Origin: Tubiluchus corallicola
Taxonomy: Eukaryota; Priapulida; Priapulimorpha; Priapulimorphida; Tubiluchidae
Assembly (NCBI GenBank): GCA_030141605.1
Contig: JAQGDQ010000399.1
Coordinates: 15,001-79,000, forward strand
Direction of reading: 5' to 3'
DNA: 64,000 bases
Made by a program: the position numbers and the translations under genes. Of the stretch, positions 8,136 to 42,010 are shown piece by piece. Under the pieces are notes generated by a model. It had not been told where the DNA came from, searched no databases, and was given only the letters and a program-made list of their open reading frames with translations. Each line of letters starts with the position of its first letter. Position 1 is the stretch's first letter.

Positions 8136-8199
8136 TTTAACCTGAAACATAATATGAATAGATCGTTAAATGTACTTTTAGCTTATTTTTAGAATAATA

Positions 8200-15619: not shown

Positions 15620-16749
15620 GAAAACATCAAATACTTGGGCCTACTCATTGATAATAAATTAACATGGGAACCACATATAAAACACATAACATACAAATTA
15701 AGTCGAATTACTGGAATAATTTTAAAAGTAAGGCACTACGTTGACCAATATATTCTGAAACTTCTATATAATTCGTTAGTTTTCCCTTATTTACAATATT
15801 CCATCTTAACATGGGGTACGGCTTTTGCATCAATTCAAAAATTAATACAGACACAACAAAACAAAATAGTAAAACTAATAACTTTTGCTCGCAAATATGA
15901 TCATGCTACACCATCGTTCGTAAAATTAGAAATTTTAAAAGTAAGAGATATTTACAATCTTGAGTTGTTCAAATTTATGTATAAATTCAATGCTGGTTTA
16001 TTACCCGAACTTTTTAGTGAATATTTCACTAATGTTTCTGATATACATTCCTACTCCACAAGAGCTGCTTCTAATGAACAGTATTTTGTGGAGAGATTTT
16101 TTACCCGACATGGTTTCAATAGCTTAAAATCACGAGGAGTTAAATTATGGAACTCGTTGCCAAAAGATACCTTTGGAGGTAGCTTATTTTCTGCTTCCAA
16201 AAAATACACAAAATTCTTACTAAATGAATATACCTGTAATACATAACTTGTAAGACTAATAAGCAAGCTATCAAGTGTTTTTTTCTCATCTCCTAAGTAA
16301 TTGTTGCTCTTTCTTATACTAACTTTTTCTCTTAAATTTTCTATATTACACTTTTTTGATACTTATTTTATCTCTCCATACAGTCAAAATCCCCTGTCAA
16401 TAAGGCCCCTATTTGAAAATATATGTAATAATCATAATTACTTGTATTAATTGTATTGTTTTGTTTAGATTTAGGTGTCATCTAACTTTATTATTTTTTG
16501 TTTTCACTTATACTGTTTTCATTTATACTTTGTTTTCATTTATACTGTTTAATATTATTATTTCTTTCCTATTTGATTTTGTTATCCGCAGTCTCACCAT
16601 TTACTTTTAATATACTAATTTAATTATAAGACAGGGCAGGAGACTAGATGACCCTATGGTCCTTCCCTGCCCTGCTCCACTACTATAATTAAGTAATATT
16701 TAAAAAAACTTGTCATGTCAAACAAATGGAGAAAATAAATGTTCTATGT
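15620..16749 (+). mobile_element. Second copy of the LINE 3' end, inverted
   Basis: This copy is severely 5'-truncated: similarity begins at about 15623 (aacatcaaatacttgggcc). It contains only the RT C-terminal region (KYLGLLIDNKLTWEPHI to VKLWNSLP, stop at 16244-16246) and the 3' UTR. It matches the reverse complement of 12961-14089 almost base for base; the encoded segment differs only at KVRD versus KAKD. Near-identity implies recent insertion. Both copies end at AAATAAATGTTCTATGT. Confidence 0.92.
16632..16674 (+). other. Structured hairpin near LINE 3' end
   Basis: A perfect 9-bp stem (CAGGGCAGG at 16632-16640 with CCTGCCCTG at 16666-16674) encloses AGACTAGATGACC, a CTAT loop and GGTCCTTC, with an inner GACC/GGTC stem. 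Outside it, TAATTATA pairs with TATAATTA. The same layout occurs at 41845-41887 in another LINE tail. It is likely the RNA element by which the encoded RT recognises its template. Confidence 0.7.
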
Positions 16750-17211
16750 ACTGATGCTCTATCGTGAGTATTAGGTTGTAGTATTAGTAGGTGAGGCCCT
16801 ATGAGCTTCGTGACCCTAATCCTGTGCATGTGCGAGCTATTAAATAAATAAAAACAACAATAAAAACCGTGGCTAAATCAAGAAGATTCAGCTGTAAAGC
16901 AGAATCTCAAATATGAATATAATTAGGAGTTTGAGACTTTGAGGACGATTTCCGTTAACACCGAGTTCTGCTGCACGATTGAAACTATTAATTTTGTAAA
17001 ACGAGAGTGCGCTGTGACACGCTGGAAATCGTACTGCTGCACCCAAACAGTACGCTTTGATATTATTATTTTGATTTTACAAAAATTTAATAATCTCAAT
17101 GAAATTTAAAAGTGATGCAGTGAATGGTTTGATGTGTTTATCTTTGTATAGTAAAACATAATTGTGTTCAATTTTAAACTTTTTTGTTTCAGTGTCTAAA
17201 CTTTTATTAAA
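16750..17211. other. Upstream of the Argonaute start codon
   Basis: About 16760-16855 looks like another short retroelement tail: a GAGCTTCGTGACCC stretch followed by AAATAAATAAAAACAAC. A pyrimidine tract and acceptor (tttttgtttcag, ending 17192) lies 19 bases before the Argonaute ATG, so the true first exon and promoter lie further upstream and were not located. Confidence 0.4.
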
Positions 17212-20200
17212 ATGCCAAGAAAGAAGCAAAAAAAACGTGGAGGAAGATCTAGTGGTAAACTCAATTTTGAATTAAATTCTGACATAGTGGCATTGAGATT
17301 TAATTACAGTACTTGCGGTATTGTAGACCTGTATTGTTTAATTGGGACTTGCACTAATAAAATGAATCAGCTTACAATATTAATAAAATGTTTATGTTGA
17401 GACAGTGTACACAAACATTTATATTCGAAAAACATGTTTGGATGTTGGAAAACACTGCTTATTTCTGCACATTATGGACAAAATATTAGCAGAATATTAT
17501 TTGAATATTTGGGTTTTTTCTTATCTTGGTATCCCAGACTCTGGTGCAGGAAGAAAAGACTTGCCAGAGAGGAAAGAAACAGTGAGTGAAAAACCTGAAA
17601 CTGAGGAAGCCAGCACTTCCGGTGACAAAGGAGATGTGGCAGGTGCATCAACTTCTGTAAAAGAAATAGGTATCTGACACATTTTATGATAATATCATAT
17701 TTGTAGCAATCATGCTATTGTGCTTGTGGTTGTTATACTGTGATTGGCATCGCTAATACAAATGTTGTGAACCTAGCTAATAACTGGCAGCTCTGGAATT
17801 TTTCGAAGTCTTGTCATTTTGCCCATTACTGAAAATTTTTGAATTGTTTACTATCAAACCAGTCCCCATTTGTATTTTGTTTATAATGAACATTTGTTTT
17901 GTTACATTGAATTTGACCATAATGAACATTTTCTAATAAAATGAATTAACTAGTAACGAGCCTTTTCCATTCTGGGCACACTGAATCCTAAACAAGTTTT
18001 TCCTTATGTAGCTTTGTCTAAGAAGTGAGTTATTCAAATGAACTACTCAATTAGCTTTTCATTTTTCTGCTTGATACATAGAACCCTGTTACTCGTAAGT
18101 GAATATAGTCGGCTCCATTTATTAAGCTCACATTAATTTAATCGGTCGCCTAATTGACTGAAAAGGTCTTGTACAGGTCGCTCCTATTTAAATGTTTATA
18201 AAAACTGTTGGCAATTGAGTCGAATAACTCCGCATAATTGATTCAATATTTTTGTTTCGGGTGCTTAAAATAAGCACCTGTGCGTAATCAGAGAGCTTTT
18301 GCTACTTTTAAGTCCCCCTGTACTTTGCTGCTTTTTCACTATACTTTAGTAGTCATGTGCAATCACGTGAAGTACCATTTTTATAAGTAGGTTTGTTTAT
18401 CATGTGCTGTTACACTAATGTAGAGTTTTTGCTTTGGATCTGTTACCCCCTTGTCTGCTGTACATACTAAGCTGATCAGTGATGACTCGAGCTTCTATAC
18501 CAGTAATACCACACCTGTCAGCTCATAGATACAGTTGGTTAATTGGGTCAGAACTTCTATCCCAAAGTGAGTCTGTTAAGCGGCAGCTACTGTATTATGC
18601 TGAATCAGATTCATCCTGTACAAAATAATAATAATTGTTTATGCTGTATTGAAAGAATTATTCTGACAAAGTTTTCTTTGAATAGGAGCACCAGTGCACA
18701 ATTTTTATGAGAGAATGGTACTTTAAGGCTCTCATGGATCATATAGTCTCTGACAGAAGCTAGCCTATCTTGAACTTTTATGTTCAAATTCTTTTCTTTA
18801 TTATGCTCTACTCCAGACTGAATAAGACCTAGTGTACAATTTTACTAACTCTCTTAGATCATTATTATTATTTATTTTTGATCAGCAGAATATGTATTGT
18901 ACGTCAATGTGATCATTACATTAAAAAGTTAGTACATTGACAAATAAAAAACAACTGAATAGTGGTTAGTAAGTCACCGATTTTGGCATAGTTATATGTT
19001 ACAACATTACTAAGATAAGGCTTATGTCAAGACAGTGTACAGAAGCATTTACATTAGAAAAATATCTGTGGATGCTAGAAAAGACTATATTTGGCTGTTT
19101 GTGAACATTACAAATGAAATATTAGTGCAGTAAACGCCGTTTATTAGACTCATGGTTAATAAACTCAGTTGCTTAATTGACTCAAAAACACCTGGAATGA
19201 GCTGCTCCTATTCACATGTATATAAAAACTGTCGGTAATTGACTTAAATAACGCTACATAATTGACTCTATATTTTTACTTCAGACACTTAAAATAACGC
19301 ACTTGTGTGTATCCAAAGAGCTTTTACTGTTTTATGTCATCTTTATGTCGATTTTGTGCACTGTAATATACTTAAAAACTGTCATGTTAGGCACAGCTTT
19401 ATAGCTTTGTTTGTAAGCTACAATGTATTTCTCACTGTAATTTTTATACACTACAAGTTCATATATCTTTTATCTTTATTAACGATACAAGTTTAAAGAT
19501 GATCATTTGCAATTTAGTGAGTGCGTGGAAGCAGCAGTTTATTGTGCCTTGAATAGCTGATGCTATAATGGGGTAGATGAAAAACGCAAATAATTGTATT
19601 TGTACTTTATGAGACGAAAACATTATCTTCCAATAAGTTTGCTTTCATTTCTATGTCAGTATATCAGTATATTTTATGTACCAAGAATTCAAAAATTCCT
19701 TCCTTATAATCCCTTTACATTATTTTAGCAAAGGTTGTGCCATTTTTTGATTTGTCATTTTCAAATCATTTTTAAAGCTCCAGGTGGACGTTCTGCTTTG
19801 TTTACCAAAAAACAAGGAAGTGACATTCCAAAGGGAGGTGGCGATGTACCAGATGCAAAAAGAGACACTGCTATGGCAAGAGCACCAGTTTCTGAACAAA
19901 AGCCAAGTGAGTGATATACAGTGACCTTACATAAAGAATAGCTTAGCCTAATAAAGTCAAAAACTTGGATTTGAATACTGCTCATGCGCAGGAGATTCCT
20001 AGCTTACTGTATCAGTTAATACTTTAAAAGTATATCATCCTTCAAGGGCTGTTTTTGCCTAACAATCAAATGCAGTTTTTTGCCAAATAGTAGACCACAG
20101 AATTTCTATTAGAATACAGCTCCCATACACCTTGCATGAGTCTAGCATTTCTGTCTCTGAACATGTATGGCATTTAAATCTGTAGATAAACATGCCACAT

Positions 20201-23200
20201 TCTACATTTTTTCTGCCAGGGTTTTCTCAACGTGTACTTTCAGAAAATCATTAATGGCTGATGCCTGGGCCAAATTATGACCTTCTGGGGCCCCAGGTTA
20301 ATGAAATTATGGACGGACTACTAGCCTGCACACATCTTCATTCGTTTCTACTCGTGATATATTTTAGCCACATTTGCATAACTTGAAGTAAACTTATTGC
20401 TTATTAAGGTAGAATGGTTATCTTTTGTTTGTCAATAAAAATAAACTTTAAGAAGTACCGCTATTTTACTACTTGTTGCAAACCAAATTAGCACCTATTT
20501 TAACACAGCCATAGTGAAAAAAAGATTTTTTTACCAGATTTTACCAAAGCTTGAGAACTTCCAAGCTTATGAGGCCTTAGGCTGCAGGCTATACTAGCCT
20601 ATAGGATAATACAGCCCTGGCTGACATACACATCATTTCTAAACATTTCATAATTCTTATCTATGTCAACATCAACAACTATCTTTTCTAGAACCTGTCC
20701 AGCCCATGTCAGGTGCTGTGGGAGGTGTTGCCGCACGTTTGCAGGAGATGAGCTTGATTAAACCGCCTCTTCGACCAGATGAAGGTGGAAGAGCCGGTCG
20801 CCCAATAAGCCTGAGAGCAAACCACTTTCCGGTAAAGATGCCTCAGCACGGATTTTGGCATCAGTATGATGTATCCATCGAACCACCTCAGCAGCCACAA
20901 AAGAAGATTCCTAAAAGGCTGTGCAGGTATCCAGTTTTTAATTTTAGCCACTGAGCAAACACATAGATAGAAAAATAAAGTTACTACAAACTTTAGAATT
21001 TAAAAATAAAGACAACTAAAGTAAGGCATAAGCCATGACAAATTTGGAATTGCGGGAGTTAAACGTAACTTTTAACAAATGCATATTTAAGTAATTAACT
21101 AAAATTTATAGTGTTACTGCAGGTAATTAGAAAATGTGTTATGTTACTTTAATAGACAACTGTTTGAGCAGTGTGTGAAAGAAAATCAACATCTTTTCGG
21201 ACAAGTCAAGCCAGTATTTGATGGGATGAAGTTTATGATCGCTTCTAATGTTTTGCCATTCCAAGGAGAAGTATGTTCAATGTCTTTTGCAAATGTATTT
21301 CTAGTTTTAAATGCATAGAAACCAAGGTGTTATATGCTAACCGTTCACATTATTAAAGCAATAAAGCGTTTTGCTGTGATTAAGGTGTGTTGATGCCTTA
21401 ACCACACCCAGCACCTGGTGCCCCAGCTCTCTCCTTTACCCCGCGTCACCACATACATGTTTCACAACTTACAGCATACGATTATGTGATACAAATCAGG
21501 GATGAACCGGATATAGTTTTGCCGGATCTGGATCTGCATGAGCCAGATCCGGTTCCGGTTTCAGATCTACAAATTAATGTAAATGATAATTTCATTTGTT
21601 TAGCCTTTTGTTCTTGCGGTTACACCGCCTGTCCATTTTCAGCATCACCGGGTGATTTTAAGTGGAAACAGTGGCAAACGTTGATGTATTATAAATTTAA
21701 ATACTTGATCTAACCTTGGTTTAAACTAGAAAACTGCCAAACTACGTTTTTACTGGCAGTAGATGGTTCTAAATTTTTAGGAGACATTTTAACAGCAATA
21801 ACGCTATCCTTGGATGCTCCTTGATGCATGAAATCATAGCATGAAGATTACTGTTATCGCTTACGCTACAAGCATGGCAGTATAAAAACTAAGCGGTACT
21901 TTCTTAAATTTCTGAAAATTTGAATAGAAATTTTCCAAATTTTTTGAAAAGATTAAAAACTATTCAGGTTATTAAACTGTTGTATATTGTATATTTTGTT
22001 CTTAAACACTCTAATTTTTTCCCAGTTGATGCACAAATGGTAGTTTTGCACACAGAAAAACAGATATACGATCAGTGCAAAATGCGACGAATGTTTTTTT
22101 GTCGAATCCGGATACATTAAAATTACTGGATCTCAGGATCTGGAACCCGATCTGGCACATCCCTAATACAAATTGCGTGTTATTATATATAAAACAAACT
22201 CCATTGTTCTATGTAGGATTTTTCCTATTTAAATTTGTCATTGGCGTCAAAATAAAATATTAATTAAGTAAATCAGCTTCAAAAAAGAAGGTATGATGCC
22301 TGCCAATAGCAAAATATAGTGATTTACAGCACCAGAGGCCACTAGTTATTGGAGTTATTTAACTAAGGTTAAGAGTTAAGAATAAAATCACAAAATTTAA
22401 TTATCATATCACTACCCTTCTTAAGCTAAAATATCTCTGTATTTTCAGTTTTTCAAGTAACTGCTAATGCGTTTAAGGAAGTTGCATCAAATCTTAATAA
22501 TTAAAATTGTCTTTCAAAAAATTATGGTCTTGGCTATCAAAGACTTTAAAAAGGTTTAGAAATGCAGCTACAACAAATTTATTTTCATTTAAATTTGATT
22601 TCCAGTTGCATGTATGATAGCATCAGTAGTAGAGCCCTTTCGTCTAAAACCAAATTAATGTTTACAGACAATATTGTTAGTGTTTTTGTTTAAGTTCAGT
22701 TGTTCTATAGCACTCTCTCCAGAATTTTTCCAACATAATGAATAATGGATATAGGCCGGTAATTATAAATATATATTACACATATATAAACATATATGTA
22801 ATATATATAATCTTTAGTTGTTTAAAGTGGATTAAGAAAACACATGATTCAAGTTTCTCTACAGTGCAGGTGCAAGTGAGTCAGTGCATTATAACATTGA
22901 TAAGATTTTCAAGTAAATAACATTAATTAGGCAAACATATATCAGTTTGGCATAATATATATTATCTGGGCATTAAACAATGCAGTAAATCATCTAAATT
23001 AAACAATACATGAATCTACATCAAAAGAAATGCAAGAATAATAGCAATGTTGTGCTTATTCTTCAGTTAGTAAAGTTACTAAACTCAATATTTATCTTTA
23101 CTTGAACCTTTTGGTTGATTTTATAAAATCTTGAACTATAAACAGTAATAGCCCAATAATTAACAGGGTCAGGTAATGAATCTTTTTTGGGGGACTGGTG

Positions 23201-26200
23201 TTGCACTGGATAGATTACAGATACTGGGGACACACTTATGAAAATATTAAAGGATGGCACCAATATAATTATTACCACCTCATATTGCCTACATTATAAA
23301 CTAAGTGATCATGTGCAGTGATGGGCCACTAACTTTGTTAATGTCTAGGTAAGGTAAAATATCTCCATACTTTCATATACCTTTCCTGAATATGGACAAC
23401 TTGTTTTTCCAAAAATAACAAATAGTACTAGATGTAATTAGTAGTAATTATATTACTTTATAAGTTGACTCGATGCATAGCGAGGTGATGGATCAAGATC
23501 TAATTGTGATGTGCTATCAACTGTTGTGAAATCTTAAGTAAAAACATCTTAAGAACTTGTAAGGTTGTACGTCAGTATCATAGTTGACTTTTGGCTCAGA
23601 ATGGCATTAAACATGATGGTAAAATGATGCCACTACATGAGCCATTAATCATGAAGCGTCCTGCTCTAGGACCTTAGTTAATGACTGTTGCAGATTTTGT
23701 GGTCACAGTGTTGCCAACTATCTGTTTTCAATTTATTTCTTTTTTCAGCTTGTTGACCCCTGAAATTTGGTACACTAAGCGCATGCTTAGGCTGCCTATG
23801 TGTTAATCAGATCCTAATAATGGTGATATGCATCTCCTCTCTACTAAAAATACAACGTTCTAATGTTACTTTTAATACTAAGAATTTAATTTCATTTTCA
23901 CTAAGTATTTAATTTGTAAGGCTAGTGATACAATTATGCAAGCGTTCCAACTGTTTGTTTTAATTTTGATGCAAGTGTGTATTTTGCTTAACTGACAAAA
24001 CTAATACACTTATGGTTATATATTTTAGCTTTTTCTTTTCAGGAGTATACCTCTGTTTTAGTCAAATCAGTTTTTGTCCTTGAAGTTTAATTTTTACTTT
24101 TGCTAATTTTTTTACTGTTTTGACATTTCCTTGCTAGAGCCATCCTTACAAGAAACAAAGTATATGTTCGTATTTGTAATAATTAATATTAAAGGCTGAA
24201 GTTGATGTATCCCTACCTGATGAGAAAGAACGTGAAAGAAAGTTTAAGATTAAGTTGAAAAAAGTTGCACAGATCGACTTGTCTGAACTAGCCAAGGCAC
24301 TGACTAGAAAGCCATGTCTTATGCCGCACGTGACTCTACAGGCACTGGATATAATATTTCGTCACTTTCCAGCCACTAAGTAAGTATATCTCTAACTGTT
24401 GTAATCTAACAGCAAATGAAACAAAGCTTAAACATTTTGATGACGATTTATTTTTCTGCAGCTTTTGAGTAACTTGAAATCTTCAAACAAGCAGTTATTT
24501 AGTTTGATTTCTTATGTAATAAAATACATTGATGATGCTTTTTCATTTCAGTTTCATCTCTGTAGGAAGATCATTTTATCAGATGCCTAGAGATGGTGTC
24601 GGTGTTTCGCTTGGTGGCGGAAGGGACGTCTGGTTTGGTTATTATCAGTCCGTCAGACCTGCTGCGTGGCAACCAATGCTAAATGTAGATTGTAAGCAGC
24701 AGTGCACAGATATAGTGTAGCTAAATATAATAGAATATAACTTTATATTTTCTTTGAATACACAAAAAACATGATAAACACGTTATTTCTATTATGGTCC
24801 AATACAACAGAGGCTATTAAAAATGCTGCAGATTACTATGCAGATAGCTAAGATTATGTACAAATCAATTAATAGTAAAAGCGTAAGTTAAATCTCAAGT
24901 GTACTGTAAATCATTAACTAATACCACAAGCAACTAATCAATAGTTAAGAAAATGTAAATGAAAATAATAAAAGCTACAGATGTTAATGTATTGTACTAT
25001 AAGGTATGAAATACTATTTGAATTAAAAAATGATGTAAAATCCAGAGTGTAAAAACTATATTTTGGTTGCATATTTCACATTTGCTTTTGTAGAATGACT
25101 CAAACGTACAACAGTGATTCAGTTTCATTCAACCAACTAAAATGCACTGTAGCAGCTGTACACGTAGAGCGGTTATGATGAAACAACTGGTTTTAACTTT
25201 CTATGTGACTTTACTAAAAAGAGGTGAAACTGTGAAGTGAAACCCAAATTTCTACTACGTATCTTAAAGAAATAAGCGGACTAGCAGAAATACATTTTCA
25301 TTTATCACATTGCTCTTGCTTTTGTGACCTATTGCTGTTACTGAAAACTGTGGCCTAATCAAATGGCGCACTAGTTTTATTAAGGAAATTTTCTTAACAA
25401 TAGCTTCTATTGGGTAATTCCGCACTATACCTGGTTTTAAAATGCCATTGGCTTCATTATACATGGTATTATTAAGCGGCAGTTGCTGTTCAGTATGATA
25501 TCATTAGTTAGATGCCTTTATTAACCATTCTGTGTTCACTCTACTGACTGCCGTAAGCTATTTACGATATTATTAGATTAAAGGTGGTGATGTGAAATCA
25601 ACTCGTTCAGGACGTAAGAGTTTTCTACATTTTGTCAATGGGAAACAATTAGATTATACTTTACAATTTTTGTAGGTTTCTACTTCTCTATACTTTACAA
25701 TTTTTGTTGGTTGCTACTTCTTGTGCAATGGGCTTTCATGTAAAATTGTGTATGAAATGTATTTGATTACCATAGACAAATTAAAAATCGATTTTTGACA
25801 AAAAAAAGAAAAAACCAACAGTAACTGCAGTTTTTGCATCGCAACTGATTTCACATAAGTGGTACCACTGTACATTGTTGTGCCATATCACTTGTGTGAA
25901 ATTAGCTAATGCAGAAAATTTCAACTAACCAGGCACAACACTCTGATACAGTTTGGCCTCAAACCTACTCTGTTTTTAAGAAGAAATTCCTGTTAAAAGA
26001 TGAGACAGCCTTAATTTGTCCTTTGCCGACTGGTTGATTTTTCTTGCAACTTTGTACAGCAGACAGTTCTCTTGGTCTGTAGCAAACAGATGATCCGTAA
26101 AGTAATGTGTATGATCGCACAAGTGCACACCAGACTAAACTACTCTATAGGCTTAATTGGATTGTCTGAAAAGGGTATGATTTTCTCAGTTTTATCCAGG

Positions 26201-29200: not shown

Positions 29201-32200
29201 AAGTCTGGTGGAAATTTAAAGTGGAAACAAGTTTTCTTTAATAAAAAGAGCTAACTTTAACTTAAAATTTTACGTTAAGGCCAACAATAAAACTACATGA
29301 TCCTGTTTCCATCTAATCGCCCGGCTGGGAATTTTCCAATTTTTTTATATTCATATACTTACTTGGCACAGTAACATACAAGAGTATTTTGTAATTTAAA
29401 ATGTAAAATGCAATAATAGCATTGTTTCGACAACTAGTGTTTCCTCTTATACCATAATTATCAGAACATGGGTTCATACTGTACAAAAAATAGACTATAC
29501 GATAACCGAAATTATGCAATAATTCAGTAATACAAAACAACAAATTAAACAAAGAGAGCAAAATTGTGCATTGAGAAAATTTAAGCGTTACTGCTAACCA
29601 ATTTGAAAATAAACATTTCAAATGATTTTAAATATTCCACAATTCAGTTTTAACCATTCACAAAACGTTAAAAAACTTTTTTTTTCAAAAAAATTTCTTC
29701 CCTCTTTACTGACATTTTTTGAGCCTACGAGGTAAGACAAAAACGAAATTTTTTTTGGCTGGCTTAAATTTTTTCAATGTCATGGCTTCCTTTTAATGAA
29801 ATCGGGCCTCAAAGTTGCCTTTCCTCCCCAAAACATTTTGTTCAGTTTTGCTTGCTAAACTTCAGATAATCGCAGGCTAAACAACTGTGCCAGCAACTGC
29901 TTCTTTGGATACGGCGTCATTTCTCTGATGCTGAATTTGTAAAGAATGCAACACAACAAAATGTGACATGTCATAACCAAACGCAAACGCTTTGTCTGGC
30001 TTTTGCTGGCTTCGTCTAACGTGTGAAACGGGTGAAATCAAGTTCCAGACTCTCTTCACTCCCGATGGACTGTTATATAAACCACCATGAAAAAGTTAAA
30101 AAGTATCAGAAAATCTTAATTGGAGCCTTTTCTTTCTGTTTTTGTATAAAACTGATTCTGCACAAAGCACGCTGTACTTGACCTTTAAATGACGAGTGCA
30201 ATTTGTGGGGTACCTAAACATTTCGAGATGCCGTTTGTATATATAGCTTGGTTTTCTGTAGTGGGTCACTGATTCATATTGAGCTTCAATAAGTAACTCA
30301 CTCAGGGCCAGATTTTGGGGCCCCTAGGCTCATGAGATTATGGGCCCTCACAGACGGAACTACCCTCTAATTTGCCATGCTCGTCTCGAATATTTTTACT
30401 TGTGATATATTTTAGCAACATTGGTATAGCTGGAGGCCCCATATTTCAAATAAAGGGCTTGAAAGATGGGCCTTTATCTCAAATAAAAGGCCTCAAACAG
30501 GAATCCTTTATCTCAGATGAGGAGCCACTTTAAAATTAGATATTCAGACTTCCTGGTCTTCTTTTTTAAAGTCAGCAATGCAGCTTATGGGCCCACCCAA
30601 GCTTGAGAGGCCCTATGCTGCAGCCTTTGCTAGCCTACATGGTAATCCAGCCTTGAACACACCATCTAGGGATAAGTAGTTTGCTAGTAGCAGTAATTTT
30701 TGTTTGGCTAAAGTAAATTGTTGCACACTAACCCTTTTTTTCAGGTTCAGGAAGCCAATTACAATAAAGATCCGTTTCTTAAAGAATTTAACATAAGCGT
30801 TGACTGTAAGATGGCAGATGTTCAAGGAAGAGTGCTTCCGGCTCCTGAATTAGGGTATAGAGGCGAGGTGGGCAGATTAACTACATTTTGTAATTTGTTT
30901 ACACAATGTGTGATTTTCATCAAACTACTTATTTAACTGTTATTTGCTATCTAAAGGCTTCATGATAGTTGAAAGGTCTAAAGTACTTTTTTATTTAAAT
31001 GTGATGACAATATTGGTGGTTAAGCTGCAGATAAACAGTGATAAACATTATTTGCCTGACAAAACTGTGTGGTAAAACTGTACTAATCTGAGATGGTTGC
31101 TCATTAGTACGGGAACTTGTTAAGTGGGCTAGTTTCATGAGCTTCTTGTATTGCATTGCAAACAATGTATTGCACAGTTAATGATGAACAATAATTTAAG
31201 TCATTGAATGTATTTTTGTAAAAAAAACTTAAATTCTTTGAAAAAAGGCTCTTATTTTGATAATCTAGGTGACTGAATCGTGAAGTGACATATCTGAACT
31301 TGTCGGTTGTACTGACTACACTGAGCATACAAACTTCATTTTCTGTGAAAGGTTTTGCATCTTTAAATAAAGTTTTCCCCAACTGATTTGCTTTTAGGGA
31401 AACCGAGTTTCAATATGCAACCAAAAGGACGACTATTGTTGATAACAACATGGTGCCTCTTCATTGTTTACATTTTGATACAGCCTTACATCAGCATCAG
31501 AGCACTTTCACAAGCCAGAAAGAAATATATAATAAATTTGTAAACTAATGAACACTACTGTCCTAGTAATACGCCCTAAATAATTACTAAATAAATTTAG
31601 CAACTCGCGCACAACAACCCAAAAAGCAACGTTAAACTGCCAATTTCACATCTGGCTTGTGAAAGTACAGTGATGGTGGTGGTGGTGGCGCTGGCGGTGG
31701 CAGTGATGAGGTTGAGGATGAGGATAGAAACTTGCTTTGAGATACCGTATTATCACCAACAGCTGTTGTTTTGGTTGCATTATTTAAACAATGTTTTATT
31801 GTTTTAGCAAAAAGCTCATCCAGTAGAAGGTAAATGGGACATGAGAAACCGACAGTTCAAAGAGGGAAAAAAGATTAACGTGTGGGCAATTGTTCACTTC
31901 AAATACCCCGAAGATCGAAGAATACTGTACGAAGACAAACTTGCGTAAGCGTTAAAATTTTGTTCATTGTCACCAGATCCGGATTATGACTTTTTGGGTC
32001 CCCTGAGCTAATGAAATTACCGGGCCCCCTCACGGGCATGCACCTTCTAGCTCTCCTACAAAATGAGTAAGATGACGAACAAACATGAACTGAAGCCCAT
32101 GAGTTACAAATAGAACTCGAGCCCCTTATCTCAAATAATAGGGCTCGAGCCCCTTATCTCAAATAAGGGACCACTTTCTTAAAATTGAGTTTTCAGATTT

Positions 32201-35200
32201 TCAGGCCTCTTTTTTTAAAGTTGAAATTTTATTTTAAGTTAAATGAATTATTCAGCAATGCAATATTCAAAAAAATATATTTTAAAATCTTTTAGCAGGG
32301 CCATCAAGTTTGGGGCCACCCAAGCTTGAGGGGACCTAGGCTGCAACCTATAGTAGCCTATAGGGTAACCCGTCCCTGATTGTCACAATATACAATTTTT
32401 GTGATATCAGCTGAAATAGTCAAGTGAAATATTTCAATTATTTAAACTGTGTAAGTCTTCAATGATTTCTTGTATTGCTTTACAAAACTCAGTTTCCTAT
32501 ATGCTGTAATTGTGCTGAAATTACTAGCAAACCTGTACCAGCAGCTTAAGTTTGGTTGCTAAGTATATTCAAAAATCAGCTCATCTCCTTGCAGCTTACT
32601 CATATTTTTAATCAAAACAACGCAGACTCATTACGGCTGCACACTCTCCCCACGCCTACACCACTCCCAGAATTATCAGGTGGCACCCTGATCAGGATTT
32701 GTACTTGCCTGCTTTTCCTGAATGCTGGAACCCAGTCAGATGCTAATAATAATAATAATAATGATGATAATGATGCCAACATGAACAACAACAACAAAGG
32801 AACCCCAAATTCCCTTGATAACTACCCTTTGTGTCAGTGTGTAAACTAGGTGCCTAATATGAGTCTAGTTGTATCTGCAAAATTCTAAGTTCATGATGCT
32901 TTTAAGCAATTCATCATCAGCTAAAATTGATTACAATCACTCACTATTTAGCATTATTTTACCCAACATATTTATTTGTCTTTCTTTTCTATAGTAATTT
33001 CATCAATGAATTGCAAAAGATTGGTAGAAATAGTGGCATGCCTTTCAATTACCGACCTTGCAAAATTGACACCTTGAATAGACCGGAAGACATTGAGGGC
33101 CATTTTAAGATTTTACAGGAACGGCATAGAGTGGAACTGGTTGTAATTATACTGCGGGGAAAGTGCTCTAAGCATTACGGTATGTAGCATGTAGATTTTG
33201 TGACTTAGCACCTTACCTGCTGAACTCAACCCATTTTAGTCTCCATTCTGTACATGTGCACAACACAAGACAATGCAAAATTCCAGAAAGCGTGTGAGAT
33301 CTATTTCTACATAAATGCTTTTCAGGAATATTATCAACCATTTTATTCATAGCAGTAGATTAATTCCAATAAATTCACAAGTATTCTAAACAAAAACAAA
33401 AGTCTTTTTGATGGACGATAAAATCAACCAGTGCATTTTTATTTGGAAGTTTTGCAAACGCAGCACTGACTGGCCACTGCCAGCAGAAGGCCATCCACAT
33501 GTAACAATATAATGTTTAGAATAGGTGGGTAGCAGGAGACGTGGTAATGCCATTATAATGCAAGGTAGGTAGGTGATTTAGTCATGATATTGTTATCTGA
33601 CTTCACACTTTTTTCATACGTGCGTGCAGCAGACAATGCTACAAGGCACAGCCATTGTGCGCTGATCCTCATCCTGATCCTAATCCCAGGAGGCTACCAT
33701 TTTTGCCAATTTCTCCGTAAAATCTGGGTTGTTGAGAAAGAGTTTAGGGAATTAGGACTGTAACCGCCTCCACCGCTGATACCACTGATGGTTTCCCAGT
33801 TACTTAACAAAAGCAGTGTTGCTGCCTGTCCTTGGGAGGAGGAACAGTAAAATGTACATGTTATTTATGTGTGATTTCGATATTAGCCCTTATTTTAAAT
33901 ATTCATCTTTGTGTGACTTTACAGTCATTTTTTTTTATTTAATTGTTTATTTGGTATGCAGTACTTTACATTCGTTTTTATTTATTTAATTTTCGACTTA
34001 GTATGTGTTACTTTACAATAATTTGCATGTACTTTCAGCGGAGGTGAAAAGAGTTGGTGATACCAAATTAGGAATGGTTACACAATGTATACAGGAGAAG
34101 CAATTGCATAAGTGCGCGCCTGCAACACTCTCCAACCTGTGCTTGAAGATCAATGCAAAGCTGGGCGGAGTCAACAACATAATACCAAAAGAAATCGAGT
34201 AAGTTTTATAATTCTTGAAATTAGTTGATGAAATGTTCAAGATAAATTAACCAAGATATTGTTATATGAAATTTAGTTGAGTGGAACTCAATGGATTCGT
34301 GTGTTTACGGAAAGTAGTGCAGAGAATAAGTTATAACTGTAACAAACACTCTTGTGCTCACTCACTCATCATATCCGTCATCATAGGAGTCCTCAGGCTT
34401 GCAATGATGGTAGTCTTGATCTGTACATGTACTTTGTATGCAAGCATTGAGCAATAACTTCCTTTGTGTAATCATAATAATTAGTTAAAGAAACTTCAAT
34501 GTCCTTTGGGGTTATATAAGCCTTTAAATGCATATTTACAAACATTTGAAGTGGCTAAACATAACCTGTTTTCTAAATTTAAGCCGTGTGGAATTTAATG
34601 TTGATATGAACATGCCTTAAGTAATTGAGACAACAGTGTGCTCTCCATCTACATTCGAAATGTAACTGCGTTATCTTCAATAGTTAAAGGCCTATATGAC
34701 CTTAACAGATATTGAAGTTATGATTACACAAAGAATTCATAGTTATTATTAAACAAAAGAGACTTCTTAAAATTAAATAACTTACCTTTTTCTGGCAAAT
34801 TTCGAGTGTGGGCATTGCCATAATGATCGCCATGTTTCGCATCTTTGGTTACTGATGTTTGTTTACCAATCTTTGGTGACCTTGTGACTGTACTTATAAG
34901 ACCTCGTGCTTTTGTCATTCATCTTGCGCAATGAAAAATGACTGTTCTTCAAATTTAATGTCGCTAACAATGAAGTGATAAAAAATCAAAAGAAACAAGT
35001 TTTACAGTAAGCTTACGATAAAATAAACTGAATATTCGTAATGATCAGTGGCGGCTCGTGTATAGGTACTTGGAACTGCAGCATCCCCTACTTTCATTCA
35101 ATATTATCAATAATATTCAGTATAATAAGTCTTTTCTTTCATTCTTTCTTTATACTTGTACGGAACCAGAGCAAGTGAGGATAGTTCTGTTTGCTTTTCA

Positions 35201-38200
35201 GCCAAGCACACTGTGCTCACAACTCCTGCAACATGGTGTTTGCATGTTGTGCGCATGCGGCCATGCGCACATGTCTAAGCCCAGGTAGAGAAAGTACTGT
35301 CCCTTACACAGTTTGTTACAGTTGTCACGTTCTTACCGTGAATGGATCAAGCTTGAACTGCAACAATTTAGGATATCAGAAAGCAAAAAAATTTTTTTTG
35401 TTTGGGATTCTATCAAGTTTATGCATAAACTTTCATATGTTTATTTTATTTTACACAGTATTAAAACAATGGCTAAAATTTTCTGAAGCAGCACCCCCAC
35501 TAATTTTAGCTACAAGCTGCCACTCGTAATGAGAGTAGGATTTTAAGTTGTAAAAACTTATATTATAGTGAATGTTTAGTTTGACTTTAAACTACATTGG
35601 AGGATGCAACACTCTACTTAATATTGTGAAGCTGCCATAGGTTTTCATTGCTTATTTTTAGGGTTAGAGTTTTTGAAAGACCCGTCATAGTGTTTGGAGC
35701 AGATGTCACACATCCGGCTCCAATGGAGAAAATGCCCTCAATTGCTGGTATGGTGGGTAGTCTAAACCGTAATGCTACGCGTTACACTGCCGAAGTCAAA
35801 GTTCAGGAGTCAAGAAAGGTTAGAAAAAAGGCAGTAAAACATGTGTAAAATCTATATCTTTGGGGTCAAGTTTAGATGCTCAACAAAATGCAGCAAGCGA
35901 GAAGTAGATTATTATTCAAATATAAAATGAACCATTTCTTTGCAAAAAGGAACTAAGTAACTATTGAGCCTCTAATATATTATAATAAAGAAATACAGAT
36001 TACTTTATACTATGGTCTACGGGCTCCTCAAGATAAATGTCAATAGAAGCAAAAATTTTAAATGTTTTGCAGATTTATTCTATTTCTGTTATCTCTGCCA
36101 TATTTACAAGGGCATTGGAATATTTCTGTTGTTGACGCTTCCACTGGCGTTAGTTGACAGTTACAGTTTCTTGTTAGCTGAGCCTGCTACTAGACATTCT
36201 AAAAAATCTAAACTCGCGCTAATGACATCTATTAATAAAATTAATAAAATAATATTTTTTTCTATTTGTATATTCGCTCAAAGAATTCTGAATGTCCTTT
36301 TGCTTCTATACAATAATTGTTCTTCGTGTGTGGCATTGTCTGTTTTGTTGTCCTTGGAGATTACTGATCATTACCAATTTGCCACATGAGTTCAGCTCCA
36401 GATTTTAAAAGTATTGTAAATAAATTGCATTTTTCTTTTTTCTTTTTTGCAAAAAGGGGTGGAATTTTTTCAGCCCCAAGCAGAACTGATCCACGGTTGC
36501 ATTTTCTCAATGACTTCAAGCTTTACCTTTGGATTCAAGTGCGATTCTGATAATTAAATGAAGAATATGGAGGAATCAGCTAGTTGTCTCCTTGCTTTGT
36601 ATCATTTGTCAATTTTTCCTTTTTAAAGGTGAAAAACAAAGACTGGTGTTACAGGAAAAAGATAAAAAGATACTACTATGTTGTTCTCATTAGCTGATCA
36701 AGTGCTTTGAAGAACTTCAGAGCCCTCGAGCTTCTTACAAATGCTGTGCTTTACAAAGGGCAACCTGTTAAAACATGTTACAGAGAAGTGCCTAACCTTT
36801 CTACTTAAATTTGTTAGGAAATCATAGAAGATTTGGCTCAGATGACAAAGACGCTGCTGACTAAGTTTTACAAACACACGGGTGGTAAGCCAGAAAAAAT
36901 TTTGTTCTACAGAGATGGAGTGAGCGAAGGCCAATTTCAGCAGGTATAGCTCTGCTACCTACTAAAATGCTAAATTAACCACTACTGAATGACTGTGTTC
37001 ACACAAACTAATTTTATCAGTTTTAATTGCTTAAAGGTCAAATACAGCAGGCTAATTTCAGCAGGTACAGGTATAGGTATAGGTATGCTACCTACTAAAA
37101 TGCTAAATTAACCACTACTGAATGACTGTGTTCACACAAACATAATAAAATTAGTATGCATAAAAGCTTGTGTTTACAGGTGGATCTTAACGTTTTTAAT
37201 TTCTGTTAGCAGTTATTTGTGCACAAAAGCAGCCTATTAATTAAGTGATAATTATTTATGTTTGTTCTGTATTACTGTGTGTTAAATTCATTTTTATTAT
37301 GGAACATGGCATTAAATTGTAGTAGTCTGGAAGAAACATTGAAATAAGTTGTCAACAATTTGTACAGGCAGATACCTGCACCATTGGCTATTAATCAGCA
37401 GTATTTCAAGTACTGTGTGCTCTTCTGTGTAGAAGTGTGCAGCTTCTCATTACGCTGCTGTGAAACACATCTACATCTTTGTGGAAGGCTACCATACGGC
37501 TATTGTTATAAATTCAGGGATGTTTATTGTGAATTTTAACTGCTATTTTTATCGTGATGTAGGTTCTTCAGGCCGAGTTGACGGCAGTGAGAAATGCATG
37601 CCGGATGCTGCAACCTGACTATGAACCCGGTGTTACATTTATAGTTGTTCAAAAACGCCATCATACCAGACTTTTTGCAACTAATGACAGAGATCGGGTA
37701 TGTTTGCCTTGCCGATTAATATTGTCATGAGAGCAGTAAGTATGCTTATGCAGCAAATTCCTAGGCCTTCCAGAAAATCAGTCAGTGCCAAAATACCATT
37801 TAAAATTCTGTACAACCTGACAGAATTGTGTTTTCGTCATGCTGTATTGATGCAAAATTATGATTAAACAAAACTTTTTATAATGTTTCACAGTTCATTT
37901 TTCAGACGTTTTTGGTATTATTCTTGCCCGTGGCCTCAACGTAAATTCTAGAAGATGATTTGAAATGATAGCAATTGATTATACGGGGTGTTAAGTAAAT
38001 ATTTACTGGTCATATGTTAGAATAATGCGCTAATTTTATGCATGAATGTAGGGTGTTTCGAGATAAACAGCACAATTCTGCTATTTCTGAATCTGAATAT
38101 GCTAATCTATGTACAACGAAATATGTTTTAAGTCAGGGCTGTGCAAATTGCGGCCCGCGGGCCACTTGCGGCCCGCCGAGAGAATTTGTGCGGCCCGCGA

Positions 38201-40685
38201 AGAGATTTGTCAACCTAATGAAAGTGCGGCCCGGGCGATTAATTGGGTGTCCATGCCACGATCCCAAAGATAGTGCGGGTAAGTGCGGGTAGTTTTTTCT
38301 ACTAGATCGGATGCCATTAACACTTACAAGACGGTTGTAGCTTAATAACACTGTACTACACAGACTGTGTGATACATATTACTAATATGCATTGTACTGA
38401 AATTACCAATATCTGTCCTGAAAGTAGAAATATATGGTTTGTAATATAAATTTTAATAACTTCTAAAATAGTTTCTTGAGTGTAGTAGTAATGATGCACG
38501 CAGGTCGGATGCAAAAAAATCGTTATTAGGTCTTTCTGTACTTGGCTCCTTGATCTAACTGCATGTGGCCCGCAGGAATAGCGGAAAAGTTTAATGTGGC
38601 CCGGCTAGTCAGATAATTTGCACACCCCTGTTTTAAGTCGTTTAGTAAGAGATTATACTACAATAACTTGTAAGGTGTTAACTTGCATAAAAAGCAGGAA
38701 CACATTTAAGAGCATCAGTATGTACCTTTGAATGTATGTTGTTTTGTCCAAAATCAAGCTGGACTTCTGCATTATTACATCATAATGATGTGAAATAATG
38801 TCAGTTTTTTTTTGTAAGTCTACGTTTTCTACCATATAACCTGGCATTTGTGCATTCCAACATATAATCACAGTAATTGCATGAGCAATTTCGGTTTCCC
38901 ATGTGTGTATTGGTGTGTATTATACATGATGCATAATCGGATGATGGCGTCATGTGCGAATGAATGCGGATCATGTATCAGGCATTACCGATTCCACACG
39001 TTTAAATACAAACTGTTGTACATGCATTACAGAGCACGGATAATGCACCATGCGTTATGCGCACATGTAAGTGTACAGTGACAGCATTAATACAGAATAT
39101 CAGCAGTAAGTTGATAGTAATGTGTTACCTTTCTTTGCAATAATCAGTAACCTTTTTAGATGGGTAGGTCTGGGAACGTACCACCTGGTACTACTGTGGA
39201 CCACACCATAGTGCATCCTAACGAATTCGACTTTTACCTGTGCTCTCATTATGGAATCCAGGTATTTTGTAAAAATATAGTTATACTCGATATTTTAAAT
39301 AGCAGTTAAGTATAGAAATTGTTTAACCCATTTAATTTCTGATATGGTGGTAATTTACTGGTAAAAAGTTGTATTTTAAGTAGAATTTACAAAAAATATG
39401 TAAACCCATTCAGTGTCTGCTAGTTGTTGTTACTTTTTAACACCTTTAATTAAGAATCATGTCAGTTTTTGCTCAAGTACCTGCACCTTTGTTTTTGAAT
39501 TTCCTTAGCTTTGTTTGCTTGGGAATCTCTTAATTGTTTTGTACTTTGTCAGTTGTTTACTCAAGAATCATGTAATTCTATAACTTTGTGTGTTTTCTCA
39601 TTTAGGGGACAAGTCGACCAGCCAAGTATCAGATTCTCTGGGATGATAACAAATTTACTTCAGACGAAATACAAAAGCTGACTTACCAGTTGTGCCACAC
39701 GTACGTTAGGTGCACTCGCAGTGTGTCTATACCAGCTCCGACGTACTATGCCCACTTGGTGGCATTCCGGGCTCGTTGTCTCGTTGCAGAAAAACAGTAC
39801 AGCAGGTAACTAGAACAGATAGAAAATGAGTTTTTGAAGAAAACTTTGTTTGATAAATGTGTGGACAGGCTTTGAGATTCTTCCTTTTGCATTTCACTCG
39901 CAGAATTAAAAATGTCATGAGTAACAAAAACTTAATTGTGCTTTATCAAAATTTTACATAGATCCTATTCTTGTTAGTCAACAATTTTCGGGTTATTGTT
40001 AATTATTGTGTATCCAGACTAAACGGTTTTCTCGCCAAAAACTGCAAGTAATTCGCAAGCGGGTTCACACTAGAGAGTAATGTCTGCTGCGAGTTACTCC
40101 CTGCAGCAAATGCGAGCAAATCTAGTGACAGATCTTGCTGCAGTATTCAGACTAAAGAGAAATTCATTGTTTCACCAATGATAAATTTTATATTTTTGTT
40201 TTGATTAATGAACCTTTACAGAGTGAACATTGAGGGCTCTAATCTGTGTACACTTGTCGAACTATTTCGTGATTCGTCTATGGCAAAATTTAACTCACTT
40301 CGTTATAAAGCTTAACTCGCCATAATGCCAACTTTTTTCCCTTCCAAAGTGGGTGGTATAAAGAGATTTGACTGTATGTGTTTTGGCCAATCTTGAACAG
40401 AAATAGTATGAACCTACTGCTGTAATCCGTGATAAGTTTGACTTCTAAATCCAGAGAACCAAGTTTTCTTGTGTATATAATTTGATAACATCTTGTTGAC
40501 AGCTACCAATGTTTCCACCCGATATAAATGTTACGACTATTATTTTCAATGTTTTTGAGTGTTCTTGTTTTCTCTTTACTAGTCAAGGTTCTGCTGTTAC
40601 TGCTGGGAGGGAAATACTGATTCCTCTCGAGAAACTACAAGAATTGGTGCAGGCTCACGTCGATCAGGGCATGTACTTTGCATAA
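17212..40685 (+). CDS. AGO: Argonaute protein (AGO clade), 20 exons
   Basis: Exons: 17212-17254, 17538-17669, 19778-19906, 20692-20926, 21156-21270, 24195-24379, 24552-24691, 26409-26619, 27368-27515, 28156-28275, 30745-30867, 31808-31944, 32995-33179, 34039-34198, 35662-35818, 36818-36943, 37563-37697, 39160-39261, 39606-39805, 40583-40685. All phases join, giving 961 residues. A basic, then Glu/Ser-rich N-terminal extension (about 1-120) precedes the N domain, L1 (VGRSFY, about 282), PAZ (about 330-450), MID and PIWI. The guide 5'-phosphate pocket is intact: Y634, K638, Q650, K671, K675 (human AGO2 Y529, K533, Q545, K566, K570). The slicer tetrad is D702 (GADVTHP), E741 (KEIIED), D773 (YRDGVSEG) and H911 ([11 protein letters not shown]). 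The C-terminus is the conserved MYFA. It should bind small RNAs and cleave targets. It is AGO, not PIWI clade, yet clearly diverged from vertebrate AGO1-4. Confidence 0.95.
18116..18592. mobile_element. Tc1/mariner-pogo-like MITE in Argonaute intron 2
   Basis: Decayed termini are TAGTCGGCTCCATTTATTA on the left and, read inward from the right, CAGTAGCTGCCGCTTAACAG. The element is flanked by TA. The body aligns with 19128-19340, which begins CAGTAAACGCCGTTTATTAG. A further right-end fragment is at about 25470-25492. No transposase. Confidence 0.6.
19128..19340 (+). mobile_element. Partial second copy of the pogo-like MITE
   Basis: It begins with CAGTAAACGCCGTTTATTAG and parallels 18116-18330 through ataaaaactgt, taattgac and agagctttt. 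Its right end is not recognisable. It lies in Argonaute intron 2. Confidence 0.55.
20274..20619. mobile_element. hAT-like MITE family C, copy 1
   Basis: The termini (CCTGGGCCAAATTATGACC, and inward from the right CAGGGCTGTATTATCC) are inverted. The body matches the elements at 30303 and 31974 (ggggccccaggttaatgaaat..., tcgtgatatattttagc, gcttatgaggcc). The flanks GCTGATGC and GCTGACAT look like a decayed 8-bp duplication. Argonaute intron 3. Confidence 0.65.
21497..22165. mobile_element. hAT-like MITE with perfect 8-bp target duplication
   Basis: The 669-bp element starts CAGGGATGAACCGGAT and ends GGCACATCCCTA. It is flanked by the identical octamer ATACAAAT at 21489-21496 and 22166-22173. 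The interior is rich in GGATC/GATCC-type palindromic motifs near both ends. Short open frames inside it are not genes. Argonaute intron 5. Confidence 0.85.
22480..22765 (-). pseudogene. Decayed LINE reverse transcriptase fragment
   Basis: On the minus strand, short RT blocks appear in shifted frames: [19 protein letters not shown], then [18 protein letters not shown], then [18 protein letters not shown], corresponding to the fingers and the first catalytic region. Stops and frameshifts separate them. It is antisense within Argonaute intron 5. Confidence 0.7.
22774..24194. other. Rest of Argonaute intron 5, nothing recognised
   Basis: AT-rich intronic sequence. The acceptor at 24194 is a weak AT-rich tract ending in 'aaag'. 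Confidence 0.3.
24692..26408. other. Argonaute intron 7, nothing recognised except a MITE end
   Basis: About 25470-25492 resembles the right end of the pogo-like MITE at 18592. The rest is unremarkable AT-rich intron. Confidence 0.3.
27217..27266 (+). repeat. Interstitial telomere-like TTAGGG tract
   Basis: About 50 bp of TTAGGG, TTGGGT and TTTGGGG variants in Argonaute intron 8. A shorter degenerate TTAGGATTAGGATTAAGG tract is at about 42380. Confidence 0.75.
28490..29040. mobile_element. Possible degraded DNA transposon
   Basis: The left part repeats TCATGATACACATC-type words. The right part ends with GGGTCTATCGTTACAGGCCT, which resembles a hAT terminus. I cannot define matching termini or a target duplication. 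Confidence 0.3.
29041..30302. other. Argonaute intron 10, first part, nothing recognised
   Basis: AT-rich intronic sequence with no supported element. Confidence 0.25.
30303..30655. mobile_element. hAT-like MITE family C, copy 2
   Basis: It starts CAGGGCCAGATTTTGG and ends GGTAATCCAGCCTTG, imperfect inverted ends of the CAGGGC type. The flanking octamers AACTCACT and AACACACC match at 6 of 8 positions. The body aligns with copies at 20274 and 31974. Argonaute intron 10. Confidence 0.75.
31496..31674. mobile_element. Small foldback/MITE with ~24-bp inverted ends
   Basis: The arms at about 31496-31519 and 31651-31674 share an inverted core, CTTTCACAAGCCAGA, with 20 of 24 positions matching. 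The loop is about 130 bp. Superfamily not determined. Argonaute intron 11. Confidence 0.55.
31974..32378. mobile_element. hAT-like MITE family C, copy 3, perfect target duplication
   Basis: The 405-bp element begins CAGATCCGGATTATGAC and ends GGGTAACCCGTCCCTG. It is flanked by the identical octamer ATTGTCAC at 31966-31973 and 32379-32386. It lies only about 30 bp after the donor of Argonaute exon 12. Confidence 0.88.
33521..33870 (+). repeat. Dispersed repeat family B, copy 1
   Basis: It starts at a 'taggtgggtagcaggagacg' stretch, continues through CCATTATAATGCAAGG, a GTAGGTAGGTGATTTAGTCA block and a CGTGCGTGC region, and ends near GGAGGA...AAAATGTACA. It aligns with 44877-45195. Argonaute intron 13. 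Superfamily unknown. Confidence 0.65.
34199..35037. other. Argonaute intron 14, first part, nothing recognised
   Basis: AT-rich intronic sequence before the hAT element at 35046. Confidence 0.25.
35046..35525. mobile_element. hAT-like MITE (CAGTGGCGGCT type)
   Basis: The left end is CAGTGGCGGCTCGTG; inward from the right end it reads AGTGGCAGCTTGT. The flanking octamers GTAATGAT (35038-35045) and GTAATGAG (35526-35533) match at 7 of 8. The interior carries two overlapping meaningless open frames. Argonaute intron 14. Confidence 0.75.
36929..37142 (+). repeat. Tandem duplication that copies the exon 16 splice donor
   Basis: The segment 36929-37009, holding the last 15 bases of exon 16, its donor and the first 66 bases of the intron, recurs at 37050-37142. 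The second copy therefore contains GCTAATTTCAGCAG followed by a GT donor at 37065. That donor has itself grown into four near-identical hexamers (GTACAG, GTATAG, GTATAG, GTATGC). Confidence 0.9.
38134..38630. mobile_element. hAT-like MITE with perfect 8-bp target duplication
   Basis: The 497-bp element starts CAGGGCTGTGCAAATTG and ends AATTTGCACACCCCTG, inverted ends of about 16 bp. It is flanked by TTTTAAGT at 38126-38133 and 38631-38638. Near the ends it carries repeated GCGGCCCGC-type words, very GC-rich against the AT-rich intron. Argonaute intron 17. Confidence 0.9.
40290..40375 (+). mobile_element. Right end of a Tc1/mariner-like MITE
   Basis: It aligns with the right half of 43220-43395 through CATAATGCCAAC, CTTTTTT and the terminal GGTATAAAGAGATTTGACTG, followed by TA. 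The left end is not found. Argonaute intron 19. Confidence 0.55.
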
Positions 40686-40781
40686 ATCGTTTCTGAAAAT
40701 TCGCGCCACATGGTAATGAGTGAAGTTGTGCAATGTGCAACTTTAAGAAACGTTAATGAGCCACATTCAGATTATGGAACT

Positions 40782-40835
40782 AATAAAATCTGACTTCAAA
40801 ACACAAACCACAAAAACTGTTGAAAAGTCAATAAA
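40782..40835 (+). terminator. Candidate polyadenylation signals of Argonaute
   Basis: AATAAA hexamers lie at 40782-40787 and 40830-40835, about 100 and 145 bases after the Argonaute stop codon at 40683-40685. Further downstream AT-rich sequence to 41820 shows no gene. Confidence 0.5.
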
Positions 40836-41844
40836 TACAATCGTTGTTTTATCTTTAGAACACAAATGATCGAAATTTAATGAATGTTTCCAGTATCTCA
40901 TTCTAGTGTTTCCTTGCATCGTGAATCTGTGATTACATTATTATTTTCAATACTTTCACACTTACTGATTAGATACTATGTTAGGATGTTGCTAATGGAA
41001 AGTCTTTGCTTTTTTGTTTGTCATCTTGATAAAAACAGACTTTCGACTGGTGTAAATAAACACCTGTATTATGTTTGTACTACATTTTCTATCAGTAAGC
41101 ATTTTTTGTTTATTCCTTATGTCAAAATGATATAACGTGGTATCTTAGTGCTTAGCATATTAATAAGTATTAAATAGTGCCGTGCTTTTTTAATAGCATG
41201 GTATTTAATTTTTGCACTTTTTATGAAAGAATGCTATTTTTATTATATACCTTTTCACCGTGTAATGATTGTAGATGCTGTATAATTATTGGTATTATAG
41301 TCGAGCATCATATTTGGTGTATTAATTCATTAGTTTGCTGTTACATGTAAAATAATGTTTTTGCAACACTTAGAATTATGTTATCCATTTATATACAATA
41401 ATAATTATGCTATATACGTATAAAATATATCGCGTTATTTTTTTCAGTCATTGTTTTGCACATTATTTTGTAATTGTGTGTAATTTTACTAAGAGTTAAA
41501 TTTGCTATGACACTTATTAGCAATTATGTAGTTTGGTTATTGCACAGAAGTGACAGACATTTATACAATTTATTAAGTTTGTTCGTACTGTCGGTACGTG
41601 TATTTGCATTGTAGTCTGAATTTTTAATATCGTAGTTAAAAATTTATTGCTCATTAGTGAATAGTTAACTTTTTCAATGCTATTACTAAAAATTGGGAAA
41701 AAATATATTTTGAAAAAAATATTGTTCATTGAGGTAAAAATAACATTGTAAACTTGAAAATCCTGTAAAATTTTAGTTAAGTGTTAATGAAAGTAAGAAA
41801 GACAGCAGGCTTAAATTAAATAAGATTTATCAGCTGTACCCATT

Positions 41845-42010
41845 AAGGGTAGCTGACTCAATGACCAATTGGTCTTTCGCTACCCTTTCTCCTGCACCCC
41901 CTTAACTCTTTCCTTTATGCTTAATTTATCCTTTTTAATCAATAACTATAAAAATAATAGTCAATTTGGATACTGGTGTAAATGAGATAAATAAAAATGC
42001 CTATATCTAT
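41845..42010 (+). mobile_element. 3' tail of a second LINE family with the same hairpin
   Basis: The hairpin is AAGGGTAGC (41845-41853) paired with GCTACCCTT (41879-41887), enclosing TGACTCAATGACC, AATT and GGTCTTTC. The tail follows after about 100 bases: AGATAAATAAAAATGCC and then a CTATATCTATGTCTG end. The layout and terminal words parallel the LINE at 15620-16749, but the surrounding sequence differs. No coding part is recognisable, so it is a very short 5'-truncated copy. Confidence 0.65.

Follow-up and report, generated by a model that had tools for sequence, protein, structure and literature searches.

In amniote CR1 elements, which are long interspersed nuclear elements (LINEs), a conserved 3′ hairpin and an octamer microsatellite have been suggested to form the recognition site of the reverse transcriptase (RT) (PMC4316615, PMC8665684, PMC5729268). 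In the case of zebrafish ZfL2, the protein of open reading frame (ORF) 2 binds the 3′ stem-loop through the region intervening between endonuclease and RT, and recognizes the stem generally and the loop specifically (PMC4176376). Stem-loops are also mentioned in mollusc short interspersed elements (SINEs), the 3′ end of which is shared with oyster CR1 LINEs (PMC5135761). We describe a hairpin of this kind in the tails of LINEs from the priapulid Tubiluchus corallicola. The starting point was a 64,000-nucleotide (nt) stretch of DNA (contig JAQGDQ010000399.1, positions 15,001 to 79,000, assembly GCA_030141605.1), hereafter called the window, whose positions are numbered from its first letter. 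The hairpin is real and structurally constrained. We assign a probability of roughly 85% to the reading that it is the 3′-tail recognition hairpin of a CR1-like (stringent-type) LINE group.

As in amniote CR1, the hairpin lies near the 3′ end of LINEs with endonuclease and RT and is followed by a short terminal repeat. However, the terminal unit is ATTCTRTG in amniotes, whereas TCTATG, ATT, GAATT, TTCATAG and others occur across the families studied here; in addition, the outer stem here has at least 9 base pairs (bp), and several inner-stem variants exist within one genome. The stringent-type LINEs UnaL2 and ZfL2 (L2 clade) share the combination of a stem-loop and a short terminal repeat (PMC4176376, PMC5135761), although their loop and core sequences are unlike those of the present hairpin (the UnaL2 loop is GGAUA). 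Recognition by ORF2 was shown experimentally in that system and is putative for our hairpin. The mollusc SINEs resemble our elements in that they too have a CR1-related 3′ stem-loop in invertebrates (PMC5135761); in contrast to those SINEs, the LINE tails here showed no adjacent tRNA head. ARAGORN detected no tRNA gene in the 15 of 74 loci that were checked, a search that decayed heads may escape, and on this ground a SINE origin of the hairpin tails was rejected.

The original prediction, made from the letters of the window, took the hairpin for an undescribed structure. This claim does not hold, because a CR1 3′ hairpin with a microsatellite had been published for amniotes as a putative RT-binding site (the three CR1 papers cited above). 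The hairpin type is already known; here it occurs in a wealth of variants within a single genome. In the accessible text of open-licence papers, we found no description of an invertebrate CR1-like LINE hairpin with the present core. The CR1 ends of birds and turtles read ..CTGGACTAGATGACCT..AGGTCCCTTCCA.., which fits the core; if these readings hold, amniote CR1 and the present elements have the core sequence in common. The sole printed trace that we found is an owl primer containing CTGGACTAGATGACCTCC, in a passage that does not identify it as CR1 (PMC3948869). A pigeon primer was uninformative. An amniote-like 3′-arm pattern matched no contig in IMG/VR, a result that has no bearing on vertebrates.

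Hairpins and LINE copies in the window

Two hairpins lie on the plus strand of the window, at 16632-16674 (CAGGGCAGG-A-GACTAGATGACC-CTAT-GGTCCTTC-CCTGCCCTG) and at 41845-41887 (AAGGGTAGC-T-GACTCAATGACC-AATT-GGTCTTTC-GCTACCCTT), in the 3′ untranslated regions (UTRs) of two LINE families, F1 and F2, respectively. The original prediction had placed two hairpins of a shared plan at these positions, and both are present there and pair as claimed. It had further claimed covariation of the stems; indeed, the two 9-bp outer stems are fully paired and differ by compensating changes at stem positions 1, 6 and 9. When up to three mismatches were allowed, the core pattern matched the window three times, each time exactly, against a chance expectation of 0.10. 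The third match (13045-13068, minus strand) reveals a hairpin at 13036-13078 (minus strand), which was absent from the earlier prediction and belongs to a second, inverted copy of the LINE that carries the hairpin at 16632. The folding z-scores of the hairpins at 16632 and 41845 were -4.75 and -4.81, respectively. When the window was searched against Rfam, no match reached the gathering score; sub-threshold matches, including weak microRNA (miRNA) ones, were taken for chance.

F1 copy 1, on the minus strand, contains the RT part of ORF2 (RVT_1; 14230-15174; Pfam E 2.4e-29), the C-terminal part of ORF2 (13466-14245) and the terminal repeat TGTTCTATGTCTATGTCTAT (12951-12970). F1 copy 2, which is 5′-truncated and lies on the plus strand as an inverted repeat of copy 1, retains the C-terminal part of ORF2 (15617-16246) and ends with an AAATAAA word and TGTTCTATGT (16733-16749). 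The arms of the inversion (13428-14095 and 15617-16284) are 100% complementary. The F2 copy is a 5′-truncated stub of 170 nt on the plus strand (41845-42014), which consists of the hairpin, UTR, the word ATAAATAAA and a TCTATG-type repeat; the word AGATAAATAAA and the terminal repeat occupy 41985-42015. This stub is 94.8% identical to the tail of an RT-bearing copy (L053), the RT of which is 60% identical to that of F1.

Distribution of the hairpin among LINE families

In the 343.5-Mb assembly, the exact core with a 4-nt loop was found 717 times (361 + 356), and a reversed pattern, used as a control, was not found. Among the first 20 places examined, an AATAAA-like word is present downstream of the core in 19 (the exception is L019), and most of them also have a short repeat that is particular to the family, namely TCTATG, ATT or GAATT. 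The hairpin is located in the 3′ UTR, about 60-115 nt ahead of the short terminal repeat.

For a sampling independent of the hairpin, the genome was searched with the F1 RT. The 127 matches included F1's own copies (up to 100% identity) and other RT groups with about 63, 60, 59, 58, 55, 53, 48 and 47% identity. We chose 20 loci from these matches, at least one per identity group, and took the RT with 1.7 kb of downstream sequence. A covariance model trained solely on exact-core copies (R1) gave a sense-strand match downstream of the RT in 16 of the 20 loci, and in 13 of these the E value was 2.3e-7 or lower, so that the search for further copies at LINE 3′ ends, which had been proposed with the prediction, turned out in its favor. 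Among the 50-nt folds of the last 1.7 kb, the hairpin ranked first in stability in 15 of the 20 RT-anchored loci and second in two. In a separate scan, sense matches scored 30-73 bits, and antisense matches at the identical places scored 16-21 bits. R1 gave no match at E<=1 on the best 30 of 150 RVT_1 loci, in which flanks of 1.5 kb may miss the 3′ end; one of these 30 loci, L047, carries a divergent form of the hairpin. In IMG/VR, two looser core patterns hit 13 and 14 contigs; on all 27, a second model (R2) returned 18 matches with E values of 5 or lower. Because the best of them reached only 17.1 bits (E 0.1), they were taken for chance and serve as a negative control. A search of IMG/VR with the F3 RT found no relatives.

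We next consider what these LINEs are. According to Pfam, an APE endonuclease (PF03372) scores above the cut-off in F1, F7 and F3 and below it in F13 (20.9 vs 24.5), and RVT_1 is above the cut-off in all four RT parts scanned. Across the 10 pieces scanned, no RNase H was found with an E value of 0.01 or lower. A PHD finger was seen at three ORF2 starts, each time below the cut-off (17.2, 22.8 and 17.3 vs 24), and both ORF1 pieces scanned contain a Baculo_FP_2nd domain. The CR1 and L2 lineages typically have varied ORF1s and a PHD finger near the start of ORF2 or ORF1, although PHD fingers are not unique to them (PMC4120745). In an alignment of four elements, a conserved K/R-rich segment between endonuclease and RT was recognized by eye. 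In an RT tree that included no reference CR1 and gave long-branch warnings, the window families formed a group with L047, L069 and L070 (96/93), separate from the remaining RTs included. We call these elements CR1-like, and their phylogenetic membership of CR1 is putative.

Pairing and proposed role of the hairpin

Families were defined by us according to their tail, hairpin and RT. We aligned one representative of each of 14 families (alignment A3), of which ten are RT-bearing and four (F4, F5, F6 and F16) are known by the tail only. This alignment omits L016 (decayed), L007:3530 (with an insertion), two copies of represented families and L070; F13, which is misregistered by one column, was retained. 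In A3, 90.8% of the cells pair. Nine of the 15 pairs have changed on both sides, compared with 5.1 in shuffles (1 of 500 shuffles was as high) and 1-5 when the partners were slid. The covariation score reached 0.372; shuffles gave 0.219, with none of the 500 as high, and slid partners gave 0.074-0.250. These controls leave the relatedness between families in the scores. An earlier alignment (A1) contains 22 of the 24 distinct hairpins and omits two of the four tandem copies of L012; here 6 of the 15 pairs have changed doubly, whereas shuffles gave 4.4 and reached this value in 23 of 500 cases. The tandem copies themselves, at L012:424-697 (minus strand), are four hairpins with a 76-nt period within a single F4 tail. 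Overall, this is a structure of the RNA sense strand, with a long outer stem whose sequence varies freely and whose pairing is mostly retained. The nearly constant part is the asymmetric internal loop GACTNNAT / NTTC, and the terminal loop has 3-5 nt.

The middle GACC/GGTC, which the original prediction had called constant, is not so: F7 and F8 have the inner stem AACC/GGTT, and F16 has GACT/AGTC. It had looked constant because the search pattern fixes these bases. In the genome, matched inner stems number 717 for GACC/GGTC (4-nt loop) and 162 for AACC/GGTT (3-6-nt loops), and the single-sided combinations GACC/GGTT and AACC/GGTC (3-6-nt loops) number 22 and 12, respectively.

Several observations weigh against our reading of the hairpin. 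The number of further pair types shows no excess, being 17 in A3 against 16.5 in shuffles (246 of 500 as high) and 9 in A1 against 11.7 (497 of 500). An alternative inner pairing, of the 5′ GACT with the 3′ GGTC, fits 94.5% of the cells with no double changes, and such an alternative is preferred when single sequences are folded by minimum energy in 7 of 13 representatives (F2, F5, F7, F8, F10, F12 and F16). Therefore, the inner pairing is favored by covariation and is not settled by energy. In the hairpins of the 14 families, two folds thus compete for the 3′ GGTC, which can be bound either by the inner GACC or by the constant 5′ GACT, and a switch between them is conceivable. Furthermore, the R1 matches in F9 (L058-L060) have an E of 0.0098, which is not above antisense noise, and the support for this family comes from fold stability and the retained ATGACC-NNNN-GGTC. 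R1 gave no match in four of the 20 RT-anchored loci. In L062 the contig ends ahead of the UTR, and the tail of L068 has, by eye, apparently been replaced by another repeat. L069 has a divergent hairpin (GGAGGAGGACTCGAAAGC-AAAAT-GCTCCTTCCTCCTCC), in which, by eye, the plan is kept and the inner stem is different; R2, the training set of which included L069, detects it and also finds the untrained near-copy L047 at E 0.002. The candidate in the fourth locus, L070, is only the third-best fold (z -1.2); it was unconvincing and was not counted.

The original prediction had proposed an RT-recognition RNA structure preserved between LINE families. The preservation stands, with further LINE 3′-UTR copies and covariation across families. 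Recognition has a precedent in the stem-loop binding of other LINEs (PMC4176376) and is a putative function in the present elements. We propose that the element's own ORF2 protein would grip the hairpin by its shape and its constant internal loop, probably with the segment between endonuclease and RT. This grip may allow the RT to pick its own RNA and to begin target-primed reverse transcription within the terminal repeat. Alternatively, the hairpin might mainly serve the 3′-end processing, stability or export of the LINE transcript rather than RT binding. An AATAAA-like word does lie downstream of the hairpin in all 14 families read; however, AATAAA words do not need such a hairpin, and the placement before the terminal repeat, together with the published binding of a stem-loop by ORF2 (PMC4176376), fits RT recognition better. 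In addition, the 5′ truncations of F2 at the hairpin foot, described below, suggest contact with the reverse-transcribing complex. We consider a processing element improbable.

The tails might also be alike by recent ancestry only, without selection on the structure, which is less probable still. The RTs of the other families are 47-63% identical to that of F1, the F1, F2 and F3 3′ UTRs align in BLAST over little except the hairpin and some 13 nt preceding it, and the nine doubly changed pairs stay paired where slid controls reach 1-5. These facts outweigh, in our opinion, those in favor of mere descent: the near-identity of hairpin copies within a family, the inflation of shuffle-based scores by relatedness, and the number of further pair types in A3, which is no higher than in shuffles. 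A palindromic DNA motif for protein binding or a miRNA precursor, to which the long inverted repeat and the weak sub-threshold Rfam matches might point, is very improbable, as no Rfam family is reached at the gathering score, the model scores are strand-asymmetric and the constant bases sit in an unpaired internal loop.

Ten RT-bearing and four tail-only families in one genome offer matched ORF2 and hairpin variants, which comprise changes in the inner stem, outer stem and loop as well as a divergent lineage. This series is natural material for the study of how LINE proteins read their own RNA.

Truncation at the hairpin foot and other features of the window

The F2 copy in the window starts at the first base of the hairpin (41845). 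In a first sample, rows were chosen by the core and start positions were counted relative to GACT, with the hairpin start at -10. Four of the 16 F2 rows, which are 15 distinct copies (L054 = L075), start at -6 to -10 (the window copy, L009, L010 and L017). Starts at the foot were found in 2 of 45 rows of F1 (L100 and L105), 1 of 31 of F3 (L093; L013, another family, is excluded from the count) and 1 of 14 of F4 (L148, at -11), and in 0 of 5 and 0 of 6 rows of F7 and F8; the rows of these five families may include duplicates. Because this sample had been chosen by the core, sampling was repeated by downstream sequence alone. We obtained 40 copies, of F2 only, chosen solely by the 127 nt downstream. 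Twenty-four of them continue past the hairpin for about 225 nt or more on its upstream side, and another four extend to a point 162 nt or more before GACT. The remaining 12 have 11 distinct starts between -170 and +31 (L188 and L079 were treated as a single insertion), and 3 of the 11 are at -9 or -10, where a flat distribution would give 0.27 starts per 5-nt bin (P about 0.003). In total, the foot-truncated F2 copies are the window copy at 41845, L009, L010, L017, L183, L191 and L194. These small numbers are suggestive of a hotspot of 5′ truncation at the hairpin foot in F2, rarer in F1, F3 and F4. Copies cut exactly at the 5′ foot of the hairpin, such as that at 41845, are new to us.

If the hotspot is real, it gives information on the site at which the template is held while target-primed reverse transcription proceeds, and it may partly account for the severe 5′ truncation seen in CR1-like elements. 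We offer a wider proposal only tentatively and would sooner bet against it. It has two parts. First, LINEs of the CR1 lineage would have retained one RNA recognition element, in sequence (GACTNNATGACC..GGTC.TTC) and in shape, from before the protostome/deuterostome split, with terminal repeats and stem sequences turning over. Second, the reverse-transcribing complex would remain attached to this element, so that synthesis of the first strand would often stop exactly at the 5′ foot of the hairpin and give hairpin-plus-tail copies such as that at 41845.

The window contains other features as well. At 54061-54866 (plus strand) lies a fragment of a distant, other LINE RT in two frames, near which neither R1 nor R2 found a hairpin. 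Two related, internally repetitive ORFs occur on the minus strand at 2050-3465 and 6633-8165; their DNA is 74% alike at 2103-2389 and 6716-7002, and neither ORF had a match in Pfam. The region 57616-59541 (plus strand) encodes SH2, inositol 5-phosphatase-like and SHIP C2 domains of the SHIP type (Pfam), and an ORF at 61389-62129 is, by eye, a possible continuation of it. Tandem arrays with 20- and 41-nt periods extend from 10988 and from 8886 to 9923.

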